A DNA stretch of 26,171 bases, taken from IMG/VR virus record IMGVR_UViG_3300008110_005146, positions 1 through 26,171 of that record; one strand, written 5' to 3'. Positions 1,271-16,765 of this stretch are shown here, in pieces. Under the pieces are notes generated by a model. That model searched no databases and had not been told where the DNA came from. It saw nothing but the letters and a program-made list of their open reading frames with translations. Within the stretch, counting starts at the first letter, position 1; every line of letters starts with the position of its first letter. Source of the DNA: a virus. The translations under genes were made by a program, and so were the position numbers.

Positions 1271-1476
1271 TATTTATCTTTTAATTCCTCTGCTGCTGCA
1301 TTAAATTTATTCATAAATGACTGAATAACAAAAAATGTTGTTTCTCCAGCATTTTTTGCCATTGCCTGTGAAGCTTCTTCATTTTTATCTGATTCTGGAA
1401 CAGAGTTGTACCATTTCTGGTACAACTCTGCAGAAACTTCTTTTATAATTTCTTCTAATACTGTTATATTAGCCAT
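1270..1476 (-). CDS. Small helical protein, 68 aa, unknown function
   Basis: ATG at 1476 to TAA at 1272-1270. It overlaps the subtilase stop by 8 nt (ATGGCTAA) and hands over to thioredoxin through TAATG. The sequence is predicted to be all-helical and charged, with a hydrophobic start (MANITVLEEIIKEVSAELY) and an Ala/Lys/Glu-rich C-terminus. No Cys, no membrane segment and no recognised motif. Its position between a secreted protease and thioredoxin says only that the three are co-expressed. I do not recognise it. Confidence 0.8.
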   Translation of the reverse strand: MANITVLEEIIKEVSAELYQKWYNSVPESDKNEEASQAMAKNAGETTFFVIQSFMNKFNAAAEELKDK

Positions 1477-2608
1477 TTACTTTTTTAGCCCATTCTAATT
1501 TAATTGCAGCAAGTTTATCAGCAGCAGCCTTAACCTCTGCTTGATATTGAGCCTCTGCAGCAGCAATTGCTTTATTTGCTTCAGATATTATAGCAGCCTT
1601 TTTTTCTGCAGCAATCTGCTCTGCAGTTTTTGTTACAGGTGCTGGTATTACTGGCGCAGAACTTGTTGTTGGAGTTTGGGCAGATATCGGGGATTGAGAT
1701 GATGGAATAAGTTTTCCATATTGCCCTCTTGCACCCTTAATAGGTTTTGAAATTAGGTTAAGTGTATTAATAATTTCATTATATGGAATTCCTGGTTTTG
1801 ATGCTTTTATAGAAACCCATGTTGCAGCAGCCACTTGTGTGGAGATAGACGATCCAGTCGCATTTTTTATTTGACCTCCTGGAATCATGACCTGCATATT
1901 TCCAATAGCATAATAATCTAATCTATCTTTATCAAAATTAGAATAGTTATCTATTTGTTCATATTGATCAGCCATTCCAATTGAAATGGAGTCATTAATA
2001 CATGCTGGCCATGATAGTCTTGCAAGATCTCTCATGTTTCCTGCTGCAAAGAATGTTGGAACTTCTACGGCAAGCAAAGAAGATATCATACTACGTAACA
2101 TTGTTGTTGTTGGACAATAATCTGATGCTGTAGATAATATGGCATGATTAGCTTGTGACATTGCAACTGCTTGAATATTAAATTTTGCTTTATTTTCTAA
2201 TACCCATTTTAATGCTAAAGCCACACCACCTTCTCCAGTAGATTGTCTTAATCCGCTAGGTGTATTTCCAATAATTCTAATAAATACAATTTTAATATTA
2301 GGATTAGTTCTAACAGCAACTGAGGCCATTTGAGTTCCATGATCAAAACCATTTACAGAAATTATGTTAGAGGGCAGAACTGCAGCGCCAGTTCCTTCCA
2401 TAAATTTTTGTCCATTTGGACATGAGGCCCATTCTAATACACAAACTTCATATGCAATCTTATCTTTAAAAATTGGTAATGAAGTATCTAGTGCTGTGTC
2501 TAAGATGGCTACTGTAGGGGCTTGTTGTTCCGCCTTAGCCTCTACAGCAAGAAATAAAGTAGATAATAATGATATTACTGATACTGCACTTATTAGTTTT
2601 TTATTCAT
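1469..2608 (-). CDS. Secreted subtilisin-like serine protease (S8 family)
   Basis: I start it at ATG 2608 (379 aa), giving a clean signal peptide (MNKKLISAVS, hydrophobic core, EAKAEQQ cleavage region). An in-frame TTG at 2644 is part of the -35 box and is rejected. The S8 triad is present in order: Asp37 (VAILDTALD), His90 (GFDHGTQMAS) and Ser254 (ATGSSISTQVAAA), with the oxyanion Asn191 in FFAAGN. The Ser motif departs from canonical GTSMASP. After about residue 310 a Pro/Ser/Thr linker leads to a 60-residue Ala/Lys/Glu-rich predicted coiled coil ending WAKKVNG. The expected product is an exported peptidase acting on cell-surface proteins, perhaps in superinfection exclusion or host envelope remodelling; this role is inference. 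Its promoter predicts a leaderless mRNA. Confidence 0.93.
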   Translation of the reverse strand: MNKKLISAVSVISLLSTLFLAVEAKAEQQAPTVAILDTALDTSLPIFKDKIAYEVCVLEWASCPNGQKFMEGTGAAVLPSNIISVNGFDHGTQMASVAVRTNPNIKIVFIRIIGNTPSGLRQSTGEGGVALALKWVLENKAKFNIQAVAMSQANHAILSTASDYCPTTTMLRSMISSLLAVEVPTFFAAGNMRDLARLSWPACINDSISIGMADQYEQIDNYSNFDKDRLDYYAIGNMQVMIPGGQIKNATGSSISTQVAAATWVSIKASKPGIPYNEIINTLNLISKPIKGARGQYGKLIPSSQSPISAQTPTTSSAPVIPAPVTKTAEQIAAEKKAAIISEANKAIAAAEAQYQAEVKAAADKLAAIKLEWAKKVNG

Positions 2609-2615
2609 ACTCCAT

Positions 2616-2644
2616 ATTTTACTAAATAGAGTACATACTGTCAA
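2616..2644 (-). promoter_or_regulatory. Sigma70-type promoter of the subtilase gene, leaderless configuration
   Basis: On the minus strand TTGACA (2639-2644) is followed by exactly 17 nt and TAAAAT (2616-2621). The subtilase ATG begins 7 nt after the -10 box, so the expected transcription start is at or within a base or two of the ATG and the mRNA would have no leader. The -35 sits in the gap after the 55-aa gene, next to a palindrome AATAGCTATT (2643-2652). Confidence 0.8.
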
Positions 2645-2650
2645 TAGCTA

Positions 2651-2818
2651 TTATGAATCTTTAATACGTCTTTGATACCATTTTCCAGCGTCTAATTGTG
2701 GTTGTGGCAAATTATTTGCATCTAATAGAGTTGCAAGCATATTGTTTAATAAATCTAATTCAAATTCAATTCTAACAATTTGTAATTCTAACAATCTTAT
2801 TCTTTCTGATTTTCTCAT
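2651..2818 (-). CDS. Small helical protein, 55 aa, unknown
   Basis: ATG at 2818 overlaps the TGA of the upstream zinc-ribbon gene as ATGA, and the frame closes with TAA at 2651. The protein starts MRKSERIRLLELQIVRIEFE and continues as an amphipathic Leu-rich helix (LDLLNNMLATLLDANN), ending in a basic segment (GKWYQRRIKDS). It looks like a short coiled coil with a basic tail. No homologue is recognised. Overlap style, codon use and lack of other coding sequence in the gap support it. Confidence 0.72.
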   Translation of the reverse strand: MRKSERIRLLELQIVRIEFELDLLNNMLATLLDANNLPQPQLDAGKWYQRRIKDS

Positions 2819-3021
2819 GGCCTATCCTCTGGTGTTGGGGCGGTTGCTAAGCTTCCGCAATTTGCACATTCCATATCTATAAAATATTGAACAATTTCAT
2901 AGTCATAAAAAGTTACTTTAACATTCCATATAAAGCATCCGCAAGGGCATACGTGGGTTGGTGTACCCCTTAAATCCATAGCCTTATCATAATTCTCTGG
3001 TTTAAGGTTATTAATGTCCAT
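2815..3021 (-). CDS. Zinc-ribbon protein, 68 aa
   Basis: Two Cys knuckles face each other: VCPCGCF (C25, C27, C29) and ECANCG (C52, C55), with a beta-rich segment between (WNVKVTFYDYEIVQYFIDM). This is the layout of a small zinc ribbon. It ends with a Pro-rich acidic tail. From memory similar CPCG/CANCG proteins are frequent in actinophages, function unknown. It has its own promoter ending 7 nt before the ATG and no good Shine-Dalgarno, so translation is probably leaderless. It overlaps the next gene by 4 nt. Nucleic-acid or protein binding is possible but not shown. Confidence 0.85.
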   Translation of the reverse strand: MDINNLKPENYDKAMDLRGTPTHVCPCGCFIWNVKVTFYDYEIVQYFIDMECANCGSLATAPTPEDRP

Positions 3022-3028
3022 ATAATTA

Positions 3029-3057
3029 ATTATACTCTAAACCTCTATGATTGTAAA
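3029..3057 (-). promoter_or_regulatory. Consensus-like promoter, leaderless configuration, for the 68-aa zinc ribbon gene
   Basis: TTTACA (3052-3057), 17-nt spacer, perfect TATAAT (3029-3034), then 7 nt to the ATG at 3021. The -35 and most of the spacer lie in the last codons and around the stop of the upstream Ntn-hydrolase gene (stop at 3037-3039). The predicted transcript starts at or next to the ATG. Confidence 0.85.
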
Positions 3058-3606
3058 GGGTGGTCTTACTGACATATTAAATTTAGCAGCAGCCTCTAAA
3101 GCCATTCTGACTCGTTTACGTGGAGTTTTAATTGATGTTGTAGAAAACAAAGAACCCAATGCTAGTTCTTGCCCAGCACCTTCTGCCATATATTGAATAT
3201 CTGCTTCGCCTATATGAAAATCACTATCCATAGTAAAAACTCTACCAGCACCTTGTACGGCAATTAAAAATACTCCACCTTCATCGCCATCTTCTGTGGA
3301 ACCTGCTGTTTGATTTCCATAGCCTTGTTCTTTAAATGCTTCTTTAATTGATTCTACAAATTTGGTTCTCATAAATTTATCTAAATTTTTAAATCCTGCT
3401 GTTGGTTTATAAACAGGTGGGGTCCAACTATATTGAAGAATTTGTCCCATTCTAAAACTATCAACAAATGCTATTCCAAATTGTCCTACTCTAAAAACTT
3501 TTGGGTCTACTCTAGAAAATATTAATCCAGATTTATCATCAGATGCAGCAGAATCTCCTCCTAGAAGGACTTTGTTTTCATGAATAAGGGCTACCACTGC
3601 GGTCAT
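3037..3606 (-). CDS. Proteasome-beta/HslV-like Ntn hydrolase
   Basis: 189 aa. After the initiator Met the chain begins TAVVALIHENKVLLGGDSA, matching the N-terminal pattern of proteasome beta and HslV subunits: nucleophile Thr2 (exposed on Met removal), Asp18 in GGDS and Lys36 in VDPKVFRVG, where these families carry the catalytic Asp17 and Lys33. A later GAGQELALGSLFST matches the conserved glycine-rich segment (G-x-G-x-x-x-A-x-G). No propeptide and no signal peptide, so cytoplasmic. Length fits a single beta-type subunit; a ring assembly and an unfoldase partner cannot be seen. It has its own promoter with only 6 nt between -10 and ATG. A role in scaffold or host-protein turnover is inference; an Ntn hydrolase with another substrate is the alternative. 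Confidence 0.85.
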   Translation of the reverse strand: MTAVVALIHENKVLLGGDSAASDDKSGLIFSRVDPKVFRVGQFGIAFVDSFRMGQILQYSWTPPVYKPTAGFKNLDKFMRTKFVESIKEAFKEQGYGNQTAGSTEDGDEGGVFLIAVQGAGRVFTMDSDFHIGEADIQYMAEGAGQELALGSLFSTTSIKTPRKRVRMALEAAAKFNMSVRPPFTIIEV

Positions 3607-3612
3607 AGTCTT

Positions 3613-3641
3613 AGTATACTAAATTAAAAATTAAATGTCTA
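3613..3641 (-). promoter_or_regulatory. Promoter of the Ntn-hydrolase gene, leaderless configuration
   Basis: TAGACA (3636-3641), 17-nt spacer, TATACT (3613-3618), then 6 nt to the ATG at 3606. The -35 lies in the final codons of the coiled-coil gene (stop at 3631-3633). No Shine-Dalgarno precedes the ATG, which fits translation of a leaderless transcript. Confidence 0.78.
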
Positions 3642-3942
3642 AAGACTCCGTTTTTTCTATTTCTGAGAGGGTTCTGAGCGCATTCTCTAGCTCAGATTTT
3701 AATAAAATTAATTCTTGCAAGGCGTCGTAATATTTGTCTTTCCACTCAGTTAATTCTTTTTCTATTTGATACAATTCAATTTTAAGGTCTTTTACTTCTA
3801 GCTTTAATTGATCTTGTTCTCTTTCTTTTTGTCTATTTTTTTCTTTTTTATTTTCGTTCAGACCAGCAATAATTGCCGTCCCCATGCCAGACAATATCGC
3901 AGCAGCCACTGCAATAACTATAGCGTTCAGATCTAGATTCAT
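3631..3942 (-). CDS. Membrane-anchored coiled-coil protein, 103 aa
   Basis: Residues about 5-27 form one transmembrane helix with small residues (LNAIVIAVAAAILSGMGTAI), followed by a very basic stretch (NENKKEKNRQKEREQ) that should stay cytoplasmic, then about 65 residues of heptad-patterned coiled coil (LKLEVKDLKIELYQIEKELTEW and onward). The layout resembles phage inner-membrane or holin-accessory proteins and spanin-like proteins, but no family is certain. It stands apart from the lysis block at 6.3-7.9 kb. It has its own promoter at 3952-3980. Confidence 0.85.
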   Translation of the reverse strand: MNLDLNAIVIAVAAAILSGMGTAIIAGLNENKKEKNRQKEREQDQLKLEVKDLKIELYQIEKELTEWKDKYYDALQELILLKSELENALRTLSEIEKTESLDI

Positions 3943-3951
3943 TATGCATTA

Positions 3952-3980
3952 ATTATACCGTATTAATTGTTTTAAGTTAA
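3952..3980 (-). promoter_or_regulatory. Promoter of the coiled-coil membrane protein gene, nearly leaderless
   Basis: TTAACT (3975-3980), 17-nt spacer, TATAAT (3952-3957), then 9 nt to the ATG at 3942, predicting a leader of about 2-3 nt. The -35 overlaps the stop region of the upstream CxxC gene (stop at 3972). Confidence 0.72.
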
Positions 3981-4404: not shown

Positions 4405-4705
4405 TAGGAACTCCTTCCAGCTCACATCTTACTCCATATGATTCTAGTAGCCTTTTTACTTTTGCTACATAATCAATTACCATTTCTTTTTTAGTACCTT
4501 CAAATTGTATAAAGTTATCTTCATATAATCTTATTGCTAAAAATTCGGGATATTTTACTATATCCATTTGTAAGTTGTTTGCTGGCTTTGTAATTCCTCT
4601 TATTGCTTTTGCCATTTCTTGTGTATAAAAAACTGGCTTATTAGGTTCCCCAGTCCATTGATTTATTCCATGCTTAAAATGATTTTTGTTTTTATCAATA
4701 AACAT
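4385..4705 (-). CDS. Hypothetical phage protein, 106 aa
   Basis: ATG at 4705 overlaps the WhiB stop by 11 nt. It starts MFIDKNKNHFKHGINQWTGE and has a basic middle, a beta-like segment (FLAIRLYEDNFIQFEG) and a C-terminal helix (VIDYVAKVKRLLESYGVRCELE). A single Cys and no catalytic pattern. No signal or membrane segment. Co-transcription with WhiB from 5254-5283 is likely. I do not recognise the family. Confidence 0.82.
   Translation of the reverse strand: MFIDKNKNHFKHGINQWTGEPNKPVFYTQEMAKAIRGITKPANNLQMDIVKYPEFLAIRLYEDNFIQFEGTKKEMVIDYVAKVKRLLESYGVRCELEGVPSERILR
4411..4416 (-). promoter_or_regulatory. Shine-Dalgarno AAGGAG that sets the GTG start at 4404
   Basis: Minus-strand AAGGAG, 6 nt before GTG 4404. 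It lies downstream of the alternative GTG at 4425, which has no such site, so it decides the start. Confidence 0.8.
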
Positions 4706-5006
4706 TTTTTTTCTTTAATCTTTTCCAAGTATCTGCTGTTTTATGTAAGTTTCTTGATTTGTCTATTGATCCAGAATTTAAATAAACTCCACCCCATACT
4801 CCGTATTCATTATTATCAATACCAGATTTATAACACATTGCTATTACTGGACATGCTAAGCAAGCTTCATCAATATTTTTTGCAATTTTTGGATCAATTT
4901 CATATTTATCATAAAATAAATTAGTGTCCATGCCTCTGCATACTGCAAGGTGCCACCAATCTAAATCTTCTTGATCTACTCCAAGATCATTTAAAATATT
5001 TGACAT
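4695..5006 (-). CDS. WhiB-family Fe-S transcription regulator
   Basis: 103 aa with the four WhiB cluster ligands: C23, then C49-x-x-C52 and C58 (ACLACPVIAMC), spaced as in the family. The GVWGG turn at 69-73 follows, and a basic C-terminal tail (TWKRLKKKNVY) replaces the usual DNA-binding AT-hook-like region. WhiB-like proteins bind a 4Fe-4S cluster, contact the primary sigma factor's region 4 and change promoter choice; they are essentially restricted to actinobacteria and their phages. The gene is second in the operon from 5254-5283 and overlaps the preceding gene by 20 nt. A role in switching host or phage transcription, including its own dyad-bearing promoter, is plausible inference. Confidence 0.95.
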   Translation of the reverse strand: MSNILNDLGVDQEDLDWWHLAVCRGMDTNLFYDKYEIDPKIAKNIDEACLACPVIAMCYKSGIDNNEYGVWGGVYLNSGSIDKSRNLHKTADTWKRLKKKNVY

Positions 5007-5217
5007 ATTGTTTGGGCAAAACCCACATTCCTTTGTTATCTACAGATACTGTATCTGCTATTCCCCAAGCTTTATTAAACATTCCTTTTATATTAAAAAA
5101 TCCATTGTTATTTTTTTTCCAAATAATTAAATCGTAATTATTCCAATATGCTTCATTGGTAAATGATTTATATTTATTGATAAATACGTTTACGCCACGT
5201 TCATTTAAATGTAACAT
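4987..5217 (-). CDS. Small basic aromatic protein, 76 aa, first gene of the WhiB operon
   Basis: ATG at 5217 with TTAAGGA 4-6 nt upstream, so unlike the genes further downstream this one has a normal leader and Shine-Dalgarno. The sequence is rich in Lys, Asn, Tyr and Trp (NEAYWNNYDLIIWKKNNNG; ending GMWVLPKQYVKYFK). No signal, membrane helix or known motif. It is transcribed from the strongest-looking promoter here and overlaps WhiB by 20 nt. Function unknown. Confidence 0.8.
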   Translation of the reverse strand: MLHLNERGVNVFINKYKSFTNEAYWNNYDLIIWKKNNNGFFNIKGMFNKAWGIADTVSVDNKGMWVLPKQYVKYFK

Positions 5218-5240: not shown

Positions 5241-5266
5241 ATCCCTATATACTATTATACAGGGAT
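5241..5266. repeat. 11-bp inverted repeat over the -10 box: candidate operator
   Basis: Arms ATCCCTATATA (5241-5251) and TATACAGGGAT (5256-5266) are inverted with one mismatch around a 4-nt centre. The dyad includes the TATAAT of the WhiB-operon promoter (5254-5259), so a dimeric repressor bound here would block RNA polymerase. No U-tract follows on either strand, so it is not a factor-independent terminator. Confidence 0.6.
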
Positions 5267-5283
5267 ACTTAAAGCCTTGTCAA
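5254..5283 (-). promoter_or_regulatory. Near-perfect sigma70 promoter of the WhiB operon
   Basis: TTGACA (5278-5283), 18-nt spacer, TATAAT (5254-5259). Both hexamers are consensus. A leader of about 30 nt carries TTAAGGA before the ATG at 5217. It lies in the 79-nt gap after the gene ending at 5297 and is overlapped by an inverted repeat. Confidence 0.88.
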
Positions 5284-7070: not shown

Positions 7071-7481
7071 TTATTCCTTATCCCAGTTAGTGTCTACTGG
7101 CTGCTCTGCTGGCATTGCGCCATCTGGTTTAGCAAGTCTACGTGCCTTTGCTTCATCAATTTCAGCTTCTAATTTTTTATCTGCCTGTGTATTTTTTGCA
7201 TCAATTTCTTTATTAGCAATCTGTGCAGACATTATATCTTTAGCGCCTGACTGTCCAATTAACAAACCAGCTAATGTTCCAGTAATAAATGTAGCAACGC
7301 TACCTAATACGTTAAAAAACATTTTATCATTTTCAGATTGCCCAGTAATTGGTTGTGTAACAAATATTAGGGCATACATAATACCTACTGCAGTAATAAA
7401 TAAAATAGATCCTAATGTAATTCCTAAAATAAATTTAAGACGAGCATCTAATTCTGCTGGGGTTAATCTTTCTTTAGCCAT
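7071..7481 (-). CDS. Two-helix membrane protein, holin-like
   Basis: 136 aa. A charged N-terminus (MAKERLTPAELDARLKFILG) leads to transmembrane helix 1 (residues about 17-42, TLGSILFITAVGIMYALIFV), a short polar loop with GQSENDK, helix 2 (about 54-76, FFNVLGSVATFITGTLAGLLIG), and a long cytoplasmic predicted coiled-coil tail ending MPAEQPVDTNWDKE. Two helices plus a charged tail in a lysis cassette fit a class II holin or a holin-associated protein. AGGAAA lies before the ATG; 8-nt overlap with the lipoprotein gene. Which of this and 7704-7892 forms the lethal pore cannot be told from sequence. Confidence 0.85.
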   Translation of the reverse strand: MAKERLTPAELDARLKFILGITLGSILFITAVGIMYALIFVTQPITGQSENDKMFFNVLGSVATFITGTLAGLLIGQSGAKDIMSAQIANKEIDAKNTQADKKLEAEIDEAKARRLAKPDGAMPAEQPVDTNWDKE

Positions 7482-7671
7482 TTACAATTTCCTTTGTGTC
7501 TGCTAGATCTTCTGGACACGCTCCGTTAGCTGTACAGATTGGTGGTTTGCATTCTGCATTTTGCCAATTAGCGGGATCTTGACATGGATATCGATAATGA
7601 CCATCATAGCCACATCCACTTATAGACAATACCAAAAGGCTAGACGCCAAAAACACCTTTACTTTTTTCAT
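7474..7671 (-). CDS. Small lipoprotein, 65 aa
   Basis: A lipoprotein signal peptide: MKKVKVFLASSLLVLSISGC with lipobox SISG-C20, where C20 would be lipidated. The mature part (CGYDGHYRYPCQDPANWQ onward) has four more Cys (C30, C41, C46, C52) suggesting disulfides, and motifs GYDGxxRYPCQ and CKPPIC that I recall from phage lysis regions. No domain function is known. Position between two holin-like genes and the endolysin suggests an envelope role in lysis, spanin-like by analogy. The ATG is 6 nt after an extended -10 box, so it probably has a leaderless transcript. Confidence 0.88.
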   Translation of the reverse strand: MKKVKVFLASSLLVLSISGCGYDGHYRYPCQDPANWQNAECKPPICTANGACPEDLADTKEIVNG

Positions 7672-7677
7672 AAGTCT

Positions 7678-7686
7678 ATTATAGCA
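7678..7686 (-). promoter_or_regulatory. Extended -10 promoter of the lipoprotein gene, leaderless configuration
   Basis: TGCTATAAT on the minus strand (7678-7686): a perfect TATAAT with the extended TGn element. No convincing -35 lies 16-18 nt upstream, normal for extended -10 promoters. The ATG at 7671 follows 6 nt after the box, so the start of transcription should coincide with the start codon. Confidence 0.75.
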
Positions 7687-7893: not shown

Positions 7894-10377
7894 TTACCCC
7901 CTTATTCTCATTATTGCACTGCCAAGAATTACTTGACCAACTAAAACTGCTGCCACTAATACTTCTTTGGCCTTTTGTCTTTCTTGTGGCGACATATCTG
8001 CGCCAATATTTGATAATGCTTTAAACACTTCACATTGTTGCTCTTCTGTTAATCCCTCAATAGCTTCTTCTGGGTTAAAGCAACCAGATATAGCTCCAAT
8101 TAAAGCAGCTGGGGATTCTAATGTCAATAAAGCTGAGGCTACCTCTGCTGTAATAACCACAGGATTTCCGTTTAAATCTTCTCTTACTTCTACTGGTATT
8201 AATGGTGGAAGATCTGAATACTCAAGACCTGCTGCTTTTATGTCTGCTACTTCTACTGGTGCACCTTCTGCTGACTCTACTAGAACATCAGCAACTAATT
8301 CTTTTTCTGCTAATGTAAATTTACCATCTTCTGCCAGCGCTTCTGCTAAATTTGTTACTTCTTCAACAGTAATTTCTCCATCTGCTGATAATATTTCTGT
8401 GATTAATTCTGCTTCTGATTCTGTTAATCCGCCTTCAGATAAATCAGAAGATACCTCTGACATAACATCTAAAGATATTTCTCCATTTTCAGATAACATT
8501 TCCACTACTGATTCTATATCTGATTCTGTTAATACACCTTCATCAATTAAATTGCTAATAATTTCTTGTGCTTCTTCAACTGTTATTTCTTCTTGAGTAG
8601 GCTCTTCAATTATTGGTTCTTCAATTATTGGCTCTTCAATAATTGGTTCTTCAATAATTGGTTCTTCAATAATTGGTTCTTCAATAATTGGTTCTTCAAT
8701 AATTGGATCAACTGGTGTTATATAAGATGGTTGTGACGGAACGCTTACAACTTCTTCTGGTGGTATAGATATGGTGACCTCTGAATATTGACTAACAGGA
8801 CCAGACCAGTTAGCAATTCTAATTGTATATGTAGCACCTTCTGTTAAACCAGTTAACTGAATAGAGTCTGGTGCTCCATCTGTATTATATGTCCCACCAG
8901 CATATGGATTTTCTGCATTTGGATCATCTGTTATTACTTGATAAAACCAAGTATTTGCTTCATATCCAGATGGTAACTCTGGCGATACCGTTACGGTTGT
9001 ACCATCAACTATTGGCTGTGACAATAGGGGTGCTGGTGTTGGTATATTATTATTAATAGCGGTAGTTAGTTCTTGAGCGTTTGTATTTAAAGATGTTTGT
9101 AGATTTGTTTTTGTGATTAATGCCGTATTTATAGAATTAGTTAATGATGTTGTATTAATTGAATTTATTGCTGAGGTGTTTAAACTATTTTGAGCAACTA
9201 CTGGGCTGAGACTTTGATTTAATTGTGTAATAATTGCATTTGCTGCATCTACTGCTGACTGAACAGTTGATGTATTCGGATCTACATATGGAGTAAATGT
9301 TGCACCCTGACTTATTTGTCCAGAAAAACCAGAACCAGTATTTGTATCTTCAATTGGTGTAACTACCCCATTTGTTGTTTCTCTATAATTAAACCTGGAT
9401 CCATTTGGAATCGGACCAGTAGCAGTTACATTAGCCATCCATGCACCATCAGTTGGATTTACATCTGCATTAAATCTGATTTGAACCATTTGTGTTGAAG
9501 CATCTTGTTGTGGATATGGACGAACATCCCAAGCAATATCTAATGATGAGCCTGTTGTTGAATAAGTTATTCCAGTTCCTGTACTCCAGGTAGTCCAATC
9601 CCATCCAGCAATAGAAACTGAAGGGGCATTTGGAGTTTGATGGTAAACCCAACCTTCATCTACTCCAAAAGTAATTGTGGCATTTGATCCTACGTAAACA
9701 TTGTTGTATAAAGTTCCACCCATTTGTAAATTAAATGGAAGATTCATACGAATACCAGCATCATCTACTCCAGCAAGCACGTTTGTTGTAGTTCCAATTG
9801 TTGCTTGTAAGTTATTAACTGCTGTTTGAGCATTATCAATTGCAATATTAGCTTGAGTTAATTCTGTCTGTGCAGTTGCTTGTGCTGCAGAGGCTGCAGT
9901 TTTTGCTGCAGTAACTTGAGATATTTCAGTTTGTGCTGTAGTGACAGTAATACTATCTACTGCTGTTTGAGCAGATATAATGGTTGTTTTAGCGTCTTGA
10001 ACTATTTGTGAACTTTGATCCGTAGGAGTAGTAGTTAAATCTATATTACTAATTGTTGCTGTTGCTGTATCTATTAAATTAACTGCAGTTTGAGCAGTTG
10101 AAATGCTTTGAGTTACTTGTGTTACCGCTGTTTGAGCTTGAGACAACTCTGTTTGTGCCACTGATACCAGCACTGTAGATGAATCTGTGGCTGAAATAGC
10201 CTGTTGAACTTCTGTAGTAGCTGTTGCGATTGCTGTATTGACTGCTTGTTGTGCTGGACTTACTACTACTTGTTCTTGTCCACCTTGATCTGTAGCCCAT
10301 GCATAACTTGGTCCAATAAAAAATAGCCAACCTGTTACAAAAAGGCTAGCTAAAAAGTATTTTAACTTTCTACTCAA
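7894..10377 (-). CDS. Large secreted modular protein, TTG start, 827 aa
   Basis: I start at TTG 10377, 6 nt after GGAG (10384-10387); the TTG at 10389 lies within or above that site. Order of parts: signal peptide (MSRKLKYFLASLFVTGWLFF..., cleavage near SYAWA); about 170 residues of Ala/Thr/Gln-rich heptads with repeated TAQTELxQA-like units, probably a fibrous coiled coil; a beta domain near 205-345 (LPFNLQMGGTLYNNVYVGSN, then GWDWTTW) resembling nidogen-like or tail-fibre sandwiches; more coiled coil; an Fn3-like domain about 445-535 (TGLTEGATYTIRI); seven PIIEE repeats; about 150 acidic residues with DGEIT helix units; a C-terminal hydrophobic helix. It should be exported and remain at the cell surface. 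Adhesion, exclusion or virion attachment are inferences. Confidence 0.85.
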   Translation of the reverse strand: MSRKLKYFLASLFVTGWLFFIGPSYAWATDQGGQEQVVVSPAQQAVNTAIATATTEVQQAISATDSSTVLVSVAQTELSQAQTAVTQVTQSISTAQTAVNLIDTATATISNIDLTTTPTDQSSQIVQDAKTTIISAQTAVDSITVTTAQTEISQVTAAKTAASAAQATAQTELTQANIAIDNAQTAVNNLQATIGTTTNVLAGVDDAGIRMNLPFNLQMGGTLYNNVYVGSNATITFGVDEGWVYHQTPNAPSVSIAGWDWTTWSTGTGITYSTTGSSLDIAWDVRPYPQQDASTQMVQIRFNADVNPTDGAWMANVTATGPIPNGSRFNYRETTNGVVTPIEDTNTGSGFSGQISQGATFTPYVDPNTSTVQSAVDAANAIITQLNQSLSPVVAQNSLNTSAINSINTTSLTNSINTALITKTNLQTSLNTNAQELTTAINNNIPTPAPLLSQPIVDGTTVTVSPELPSGYEANTWFYQVITDDPNAENPYAGGTYNTDGAPDSIQLTGLTEGATYTIRIANWSGPVSQYSEVTISIPPEEVVSVPSQPSYITPVDPIIEEPIIEEPIIEEPIIEEPIIEEPIIEEPIIEEPTQEEITVEEAQEIISNLIDEGVLTESDIESVVEMLSENGEISLDVMSEVSSDLSEGGLTESEAELITEILSADGEITVEEVTNLAEALAEDGKFTLAEKELVADVLVESAEGAPVEVADIKAAGLEYSDLPPLIPVEVREDLNGNPVVITAEVASALLTLESPAALIGAISGCFNPEEAIEGLTEEQQCEVFKALSNIGADMSPQERQKAKEVLVAAVLVGQVILGSAIMRIRG
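8602..8706 (-). repeat. Seven tandem 15-bp units encoding PIIEE
   Basis: Seven in-register copies of a 15-bp unit (plus-strand TTCTTCAATAATTGG with single-base variants), 105 bp in all, inside the large secreted protein gene. The first two copies read CAATTATTGG, the rest CAATAATTGG, so later copies look recently expanded. It encodes a Pro-rich acidic spacer between the Fn3-like domain and the helical C-terminus. Copy number likely varies by slippage. Confidence 0.92.
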
Positions 10378-10414
10378 TTGGTTCTCCAATGCAACAAAAT
10401 TTTTGTTACATTGG
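10377..10414 (-). promoter_or_regulatory. Competing hairpins over the ribosome binding site of the large secreted protein
   Basis: In the minus-strand RNA, 10414-10401 and 10399-10386 form a 14-bp stem with a single-base centre, complete if one U-G wobble is allowed (arms CCAAUGUAACAAAA and UUUUGUUGCAUUGG). Its 3' arm ends in the GG of the GGAG Shine-Dalgarno. The same AUUGG can instead pair with CCAAU just downstream (10377-10390, loop AGAA). The two stems exclude each other and both touch the initiation region. The stop of the upstream gene (10406-10408) lies in the 5' arm, so a translating ribosome would open the first stem. Confidence 0.6.
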
Positions 10415-16044: not shown

Positions 16045-16199
16045 TAGATTGACCACCAGCCCACAAATTTTGCGTTTCCAGAGTTTGGCCACCACTTAAG
16101 CAATTTATTTTGAAAATCCCAATCTGTTTCATGAGTAACACTTTTACATATAGGGCATACATCAGATCCTACATCTTTATAAACATGCTCACAATACAT
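16044..16199 (-). CDS. Small zinc-binding protein between terminase subunits, 51 aa
   Basis: ATG at 16199 to TAA at 16044-16046. MYCEHVYKDVGSDVCPICKS gives C3, H5, C15, C18, a compact zinc site, followed by an aromatic tail (WDFQNKLLKWWPNSGNAKFV, ending GWWSI). It overlaps the small-subunit gene by 11 nt and terL by one base, so all three are translationally coupled. A structural or recognition cofactor of the terminase is an attractive guess from position alone. Confidence 0.8.
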   Translation of the reverse strand: MYCEHVYKDVGSDVCPICKSVTHETDWDFQNKLLKWWPNSGNAKFVGWWSI

Positions 16200-16728
16200 T
16201 AGGTTCTTCTTCAGTTAGAATAACTGGCTCTACTATTCCAGTAATTTGAGAAAGTCTTTTAGCTACATCCATTTTACATTTAGGACAAGAGGCGGTTACT
16301 TCTTTTAATATTTTAACAAGTATTTCTTGCTTATGCTCTGTTTCGGCTATTTGAGAGGCTAATTCCGCATTATCTAATAACCCCACTTCTTTAAGCATAG
16401 TAATTCTTTTTGTTTCAATATCTGAAATCAATTTGAGAGCATTTGCTTTTACATTTAATTGACCTGCTTGATCGGCATCCTCTACTGTTTTCCATGCTTC
16501 TTTAATAAGCATAGAGTAATGCTGGTCTGCTCCTGAGATAGCTTCCTTAGCCCTCTCCTTTGACCCTGTATCGTTGTATACGACGTTTTTCCACTCATCT
16601 ATAAGTTCTACTACATCAGATCGCTTAAAGCCCGTCAGAGAGGCAATCTGGGTCGGATTATTGCCCTTTAAAAGTTCGGCAACAACTTTATTCATACGAT
16701 CAAAATGATCAGATAATTCAATTTCCAT
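16189..16728 (-). CDS. terS: Terminase small subunit (probable)
   Basis: 179 aa. Residues about 10-48 form a helix-turn-helix (MNKVVAELLKGNNPTQIASL, then TGFKRSDVVELIDEWK), as in small subunits that bind the packaging site. Residues 55-145 are long helices (AKEAISGADQHYSMLIKEAW; ANALKLISDIETKRITMLKE) suited to ring oligomerisation. A CPKC (C148, C151) near the C-terminus is an extra half zinc knuckle. Position before terL supports the call; without terL the HTH plus coiled coil would be only suggestive. The promoter puts the ATG about 1-2 nt from the transcription start. Confidence 0.85.
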   Translation of the reverse strand: MEIELSDHFDRMNKVVAELLKGNNPTQIASLTGFKRSDVVELIDEWKNVVYNDTGSKERAKEAISGADQHYSMLIKEAWKTVEDADQAGQLNVKANALKLISDIETKRITMLKEVGLLDNAELASQIAETEHKQEILVKILKEVTASCPKCKMDVAKRLSQITGIVEPVILTEEEPNVL

Positions 16729-16736
16729 ATATTGCT

Positions 16737-16765
16737 ATTATATTCCTAGTCGACTAAAATTGCAA
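16737..16765 (-). promoter_or_regulatory. Promoter of the terminase operon, nearly leaderless, with palindrome in spacer
   Basis: TTGCAA (16760-16765), 17-nt spacer, TATAAT (16737-16742), 8 nt to the ATG at 16728. The spacer holds a perfect 10-bp palindrome TAGTCGACTA (16747-16756), a possible operator between the two boxes. Confidence 0.7.

Follow-up and report, generated by a model that had tools for sequence, protein, structure and literature searches.

The cI gene of phage lambda is expressed from the promoter PRM. Its mRNA has been discussed as a leaderless transcript (PMC9031893). In Thermus phage phiYS40, most middle and late mRNAs are reported to be leaderless (Sevostyanova 2007, via review PMC3594737), and phage transcripts have been called "often leaderless" (PMC5312081), so systematic use by phages is not as little described as the original prediction for the present locus held. 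In Deinococcus-Thermus, leaderless expression from a "-10 region adjacent to ORF" and its need for specific spacing were established by experiment in Deinococcus (PMC12340547). Leaderless translation is, as was also proposed, common in Actinobacteria, in which TA-led leaderless genes make up >20% of genes (Zheng 2011, PMC3160421). In the literature searched, coverage of which was incomplete, we found no description of such a layout in actinophages.

Start-codon-adjacent boxes in the window

The window, i.e., the whole stretch of DNA analysed, is an IMG/VR virus record of 26,171 bases, part of the AT-rich genome of an actinophage, and every recognised gene in it lies on the minus strand. The phage was placed among the actinophages based on a WhiB-family gene (Table 1), which supports an actinobacterial host, and on its terminase, which is ~64% identical to the terminase of the Streptomyces phages Francob and Gilson (the latter classified as Stanwilliamsviridae). 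It is a phage of freshwater actinobacteria; no plausible host was obtained from a search of genome contigs with the epimerase-like gene. A DNA polymerase, a UvsX/RecA-like recombinase, a CHAP-domain protein, and a tRNA-Met are also encoded.

Table 1 Predicted promoters and associated genes in the window. Gap, distance from the end of the -10 box to the ATG.
Feature	Coordinates	Strand	Annotation or remark
Promoter TTGACA-17-TAAAAT, gap 7 nt to ATG 2608	2616–2644	-	Subtilase gene; kept in relatives
S8 subtilase-like secreted protease gene, predicted leaderless	1469–2608	-	Pfam PF00082, E=5e-11
Promoter TTTACA-17-TATAAT, gap 7 nt to ATG 3021	3029–3057	-	
Small zinc-ribbon-like protein gene, predicted leaderless	2815–3021	-	
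Promoter TAGACA-17-TATACT, gap 6 nt to ATG 3606	3613–3641	-	
HslV-like Ntn hydrolase gene, predicted leaderless	3037–3606	-	phrog_1040 peptidase HslV family, E=5e-11
Promoter TATAAT, gap 9 nt to ATG 3942	3952–3980	-	Proposed -35 TTAACT (17-nt spacer) not conserved
Coiled-coil protein gene, predicted leaderless	3631–3942	-	phrog_10127, E=3e-13
WhiB-family transcription factor	4695–5006	-	PF02467
Contrast: perfect TTGACA-18-TATAAT promoter with leader	5254–5283	-	12/12 match
TATAAT after TGC (extended -10), gap 6 nt to ATG 7671	7678–7683	-	
Small lipoprotein-like gene, predicted leaderless	7474–7671	-	
TTGCAA-17-TATAAT, gap 8 nt to ATG 16728	16737–16765	-	
phrog_9507 gene shortly upstream of terminase gene, predicted leaderless	16189–16728	-	phrog_9507, E=4e-54

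The four promoter-like sites originally pointed out (hereafter named by the start codon that follows, i.e., 2608, 3021, 3606, and 3942) are all present on the minus strand, with 17-nt spacers and gaps of 6–9 nt. At three of the four, the -35 box overlaps the final part of the upstream gene; at 2608 it falls just past the gene end. They were described as heading four consecutive units, which is not strictly the case because gene 2651–2818, which shares 4 nt with the zinc-ribbon gene, intervenes between two of them without such a promoter. Family searches with the zinc-ribbon-like gene returned no match. Relatives of the HslV-like Ntn hydrolase at ~27–39% identity occur in phages infecting, among others, Pseudoalteromonas, Vibrio, Geobacillus, Moorella, and Aeromonas, and no unfoldase partner for the hydrolase was recognised within the window.

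The marked genes were also said to lack a good Shine-Dalgarno (SD), unlike many neighbours, and this agrees with our results. None has a usable SD, nor do the distinct relatives of 2608 (n = 27) and 3606 (n = 30), whereas for the neighbouring genes 7481, 6157, 4208, 974, 696, 12351, and 10941 an SD is retained in all or the majority of relatives, and a TA-led start is very rare there. Two more sites were found beyond the original four, at 7671 and 16728, the latter belonging to a family that is TA-led in 8/9 members. Altogether, 6/48 window genes combine a -10 box ending 6–9 nt before the ATG with no usable SD.

Promoter-like matches between 2400 and 5400 were no more numerous than in shuffles (13 vs 16.6), and the boxes are thus informative through their position and conservation, not through their occurrence as such. 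Of the sigma70-type matches in this region, the best five are the four original sites and the leadered promoter at 5283–5254, which is followed by a leader of ~30 nt, an AAGG-type SD, and gene 4987–5217. Exact TATAAT occurs 6–9 nt before 4/48 gene starts vs 3/1313 other ATG/GTG/TTG codons on the same strand (odds ratio 40, p = 4e-5), and boxes matching TATAAT at 5/6 positions or better before 7/48 vs 31/1313 other start-like codons (p = 2e-4), both p-values being post hoc, computed once the sites had been pointed out. Among the twelve genes with an upstream gap of at least 15 nt, six have the leaderless layout, five have SD-like leaders, and one has a TTG start behind a palindrome. The last is the large repeat-rich gene 7894–10389. 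Its palindrome, AACAAAAATTTTGTT (10389–10410, minus strand), stops 3 nt short of the start and may represent an operator or a hairpin; alternatively, the TTG start may be misplaced.

Conservation and genome-scale pattern

Eighty related contigs were retrieved via the Ntn hydrolase, and near-identical upstream regions were removed before counting; the relatives remain mutually non-independent. A -10 box was found in 30/30 distinct relatives at 3606 (gap 6–7), in 26/27 at 2608 (gap 6–8), and in 15/20 at 3021 (gap 5–9), where the remaining five have a different upstream region. Exact TATAAT is present in all 25 distinct relatives at 3942 (gap 8–10) and in all 31 at 7671 (gap 6 in 30, range 6–7). 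The stretch between the -10 box and the ATG varies in sequence across relatives and is nearly constant in length.

The -35 boxes are less uniform. Those at 2608 (mean 5.8/6) and 3606 are conserved and beat all of 100 permuted hexamers. The -35 at 3021 is also conserved but lies within codons of the upstream gene's conserved C-terminus, and is thus not independent evidence. At 3942 and 7671 the -35 is missing or weak and not conserved, and the one originally proposed at 3975–3980 does no better than permuted hexamers. Bases before the -10 box that go beyond the sigma70 consensus are conserved at two sites (TTTAG at 2608, AATAG or TTTAG at 3606) and recur in related contigs.

Six large relatives (91–115 kb) were then scanned using gene starts picked blind to upstream signals, with the expectation taken from more distant positions. 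TATAAT-like boxes were in excess at gap 6–9 (66 observed vs 28 expected), as the original prediction anticipated, and this excess was absent in the AT-rich controls T4 (observed/expected, 1/11.5), Staphylococcus phage K (0/10.6), and pelagiphage HTVC008M (4/5.3). The strongest peak in the control set was that of phiYS40 (16 observed vs 3.1 expected). The same method gave no excess in Planktophila phage E7 (cultured), Thermus phage P23-45, and lake actinophage DSL-LC01, and only a weak genome-wide excess in Gilson. The spectrum of distances from TATAAT to an ORF-starting ATG peaked at 6 nt (80 vs ~7.5 per position over gaps 15–40), with no such peak for permuted and reverse-complement hexamers. 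Bare counts of TANNNTN{6,9}ATG without gene starts were set aside as too noisy in AT-rich genomes.

Promoter distance and SD were strongly linked. In the six relatives, the -10 of strong -35/-10 pairs ended either 6–9 nt before the start (n = 18, SD in 1) or 13–40 nt before it (n = 38, SD in 33), and none at 10–12 nt (Fisher p = 4e-9); the 18 close pairs come from fewer gene families, and 25 permuted motif pairs yielded 0–3 cases. No SD was found in 65/79 TA-led genes. Across 119 gene families with at least four distinct members, 12 are TA-led in at least 50% and 85 in <5% of members, indicating that the leaderless layout goes stably with particular genes. Several strong promoters on the minus strand of L088 and L101, leadered and leaderless, share TGTCAGTGG between the -35 and -10 boxes, and this string is possibly a shared operator.

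Virion genes of Streptomyces and Rhodococcus phages

Streptomyces and Rhodococcus phages carry relatives of two virion-gene families, the head maturation protease (phrog_9427) and phrog_9394. In the Streptomyces phages, both families show TTGnnn-17-TAnnAT-6/7-ATG without SD (the -35 spacing was read by eye), with TATTAT, TAAGAT, TACCAT, TATAAT, or TATGAT 6–7 nt before the annotated ATG. The layout is present in Circinus, Muntaha, EGole, Yaboi, Blueeyedbeauty, TunaTartare, Paradiddles, and Coruscant, and is less clear in Faust. The Rhodococcus phages Trina (TACAAT), Weasels2 (TATACT), and Grayson (TATAAT) carry the box at 6–9 nt.

In Paradiddles and Coruscant, the promoter of phrog_9394 is abutted on its upstream side by an intrinsic terminator hairpin (-14.7 and -18.5 kcal/mol, respectively), which makes an upstream-derived leader unlikely in these two phages. 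The result is a compact terminator-promoter-ATG junction.

Proposed mechanism and comparison with known systems

The boxes, their spacing, the missing SD, and their conservation across the group, with two virion families reaching into Streptomyces and Rhodococcus phages, can be read directly from the genomes. Given these patterns, the sites are very probably host-sigma promoters, nested within a collinear array of genes, that make leaderless mRNAs. The host housekeeping (sigma-A-type) RNA polymerase would read them, and transcription would begin at the A of the ATG or within ~3 nt, giving mRNAs that lack an SD-bearing leader and that ribosomes would initiate in leaderless mode. Most other genes of these phages would be SD-driven, in longer transcripts or behind leadered promoters. 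The leaderless promoters, placed in short gaps at the head of sub-operons, would provide own transcription of the gene and any overlapping gene behind it, in addition to read-through. With gaps of only 15–42 nt and no terminator found between window genes, these promoters probably sit inside longer transcripts. The original claim of nested promoters that place the ATG at the transcription start is thus borne out by conservation and by the dichotomy of distance and SD, while the exact start sites, like sigma-A recognition, leaderless translation, and a regulatory benefit, are what we infer from sequence comparison. The original idea that these mRNAs would be individually tuned is the weaker part of that prediction. 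Gaps of 8–10 nt at 3942 are a counterpoint, as they would correspond to leaders of 1–4 nt given the usual start distance.

The promoters could be real and yet the protein come mostly from read-through transcripts by termination-restart, the leaderless mRNAs being minor. The same short gaps and lack of terminators would suit this, and overlapping SD-less starts elsewhere imply coupling. It explains neither the fixed distance of 6–9 nt from -10 box to ATG in divergent relatives nor the terminator that Paradiddles and Coruscant have directly ahead of the promoter, and we consider it improbable.

Less credible still is an AT-rich element that acts in translation initiation (unstructured or S1-binding) and is no promoter. 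Non-SD genes of some phyla are AT-rich at about -20 to -10 (PMC5397173), but the conserved string is the specific TAtaaT, located 17–18 nt from TTGACA-like boxes at 2608 and 3606, and permuted hexamers produced no peak.

We assign a similarly slight chance to a reading in which a phage-specific partner of the polymerase, or a phage-specific regulator, recognises the sites in place of an ordinary host sigma; the extra conserved bases before some -10 boxes (those at 2608 and 3606, and ATGG or TGC elsewhere) might point that way. The consensus is of the ordinary sigma70 type, and neither sigma region 2 nor an above-threshold region 4 was detected in ten relatives, which makes the host polymerase the likely user. 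Weak region-4 matches were rejected as a phage-encoded sigma, being to a small helix-turn-helix-like protein of ~50 aa. Chance in an AT-rich genome, to which promoter-like matches no more frequent than in shuffles lend some colour, is refuted for practical purposes by the lack of enrichment in T4, K, and HTVC008M and by the conservation and spacing.

If the sites are host-sigma promoters of leaderless mRNAs, individual phage genes can carry a start-codon-adjacent promoter as a heritable trait. The layout recurs among related lake and soil phages, and it is kept in the two virion-gene families from lake actinophages (33–38% G+C) to Streptomyces phages such as Gilson (47% G+C), and a TAnnAT ending 6–9 nt before an ATG offers a rule for gene starts in SD-less actinophage genes. 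A defined set of genes, comprising the head maturation protease, phrog_9394, phrog_9507, a LamG-like virion protein, the HslV-like and subtilase proteases, and a lipoprotein, might be kept leaderless across actinophages of lake and soil hosts because leaderless translation gives a distinct expression regime during infection, e.g., when initiation-factor balance or ribosomes change, though we regard this explanation as tentative and rather unlikely. The Streptomyces relatives can be cultured in laboratory hosts, and the prediction is therefore open to direct test.

The actinophages resemble phiYS40 in that many genes lack an SD and have their -10 box ~6 nt ahead of the ATG, and in the genome-wide excess of such boxes at gap 6–9. 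They differ in extent, as the layout concerns about one family in ten here (12/119) and reportedly most middle and late genes in phiYS40, which is moreover another phage with a host of another phylum. With the TA-led genes of Actinobacteria they share the host phylum and a TANNNT ~12 nt upstream (counted from its first T) that replaces the SD, but these are phage virion and accessory genes, with a fuller TATAAT and low G+C, and not cellular genes. The Deinococcus-Thermus pattern is identical in architecture but belongs to cellular genes of another phylum, and lambda cI, also a leaderless phage mRNA, is a single regulatory gene and not a conserved set. Systematic phage use is already known from phiYS40, and the genes described here are a well-supported further case, in actinophages.
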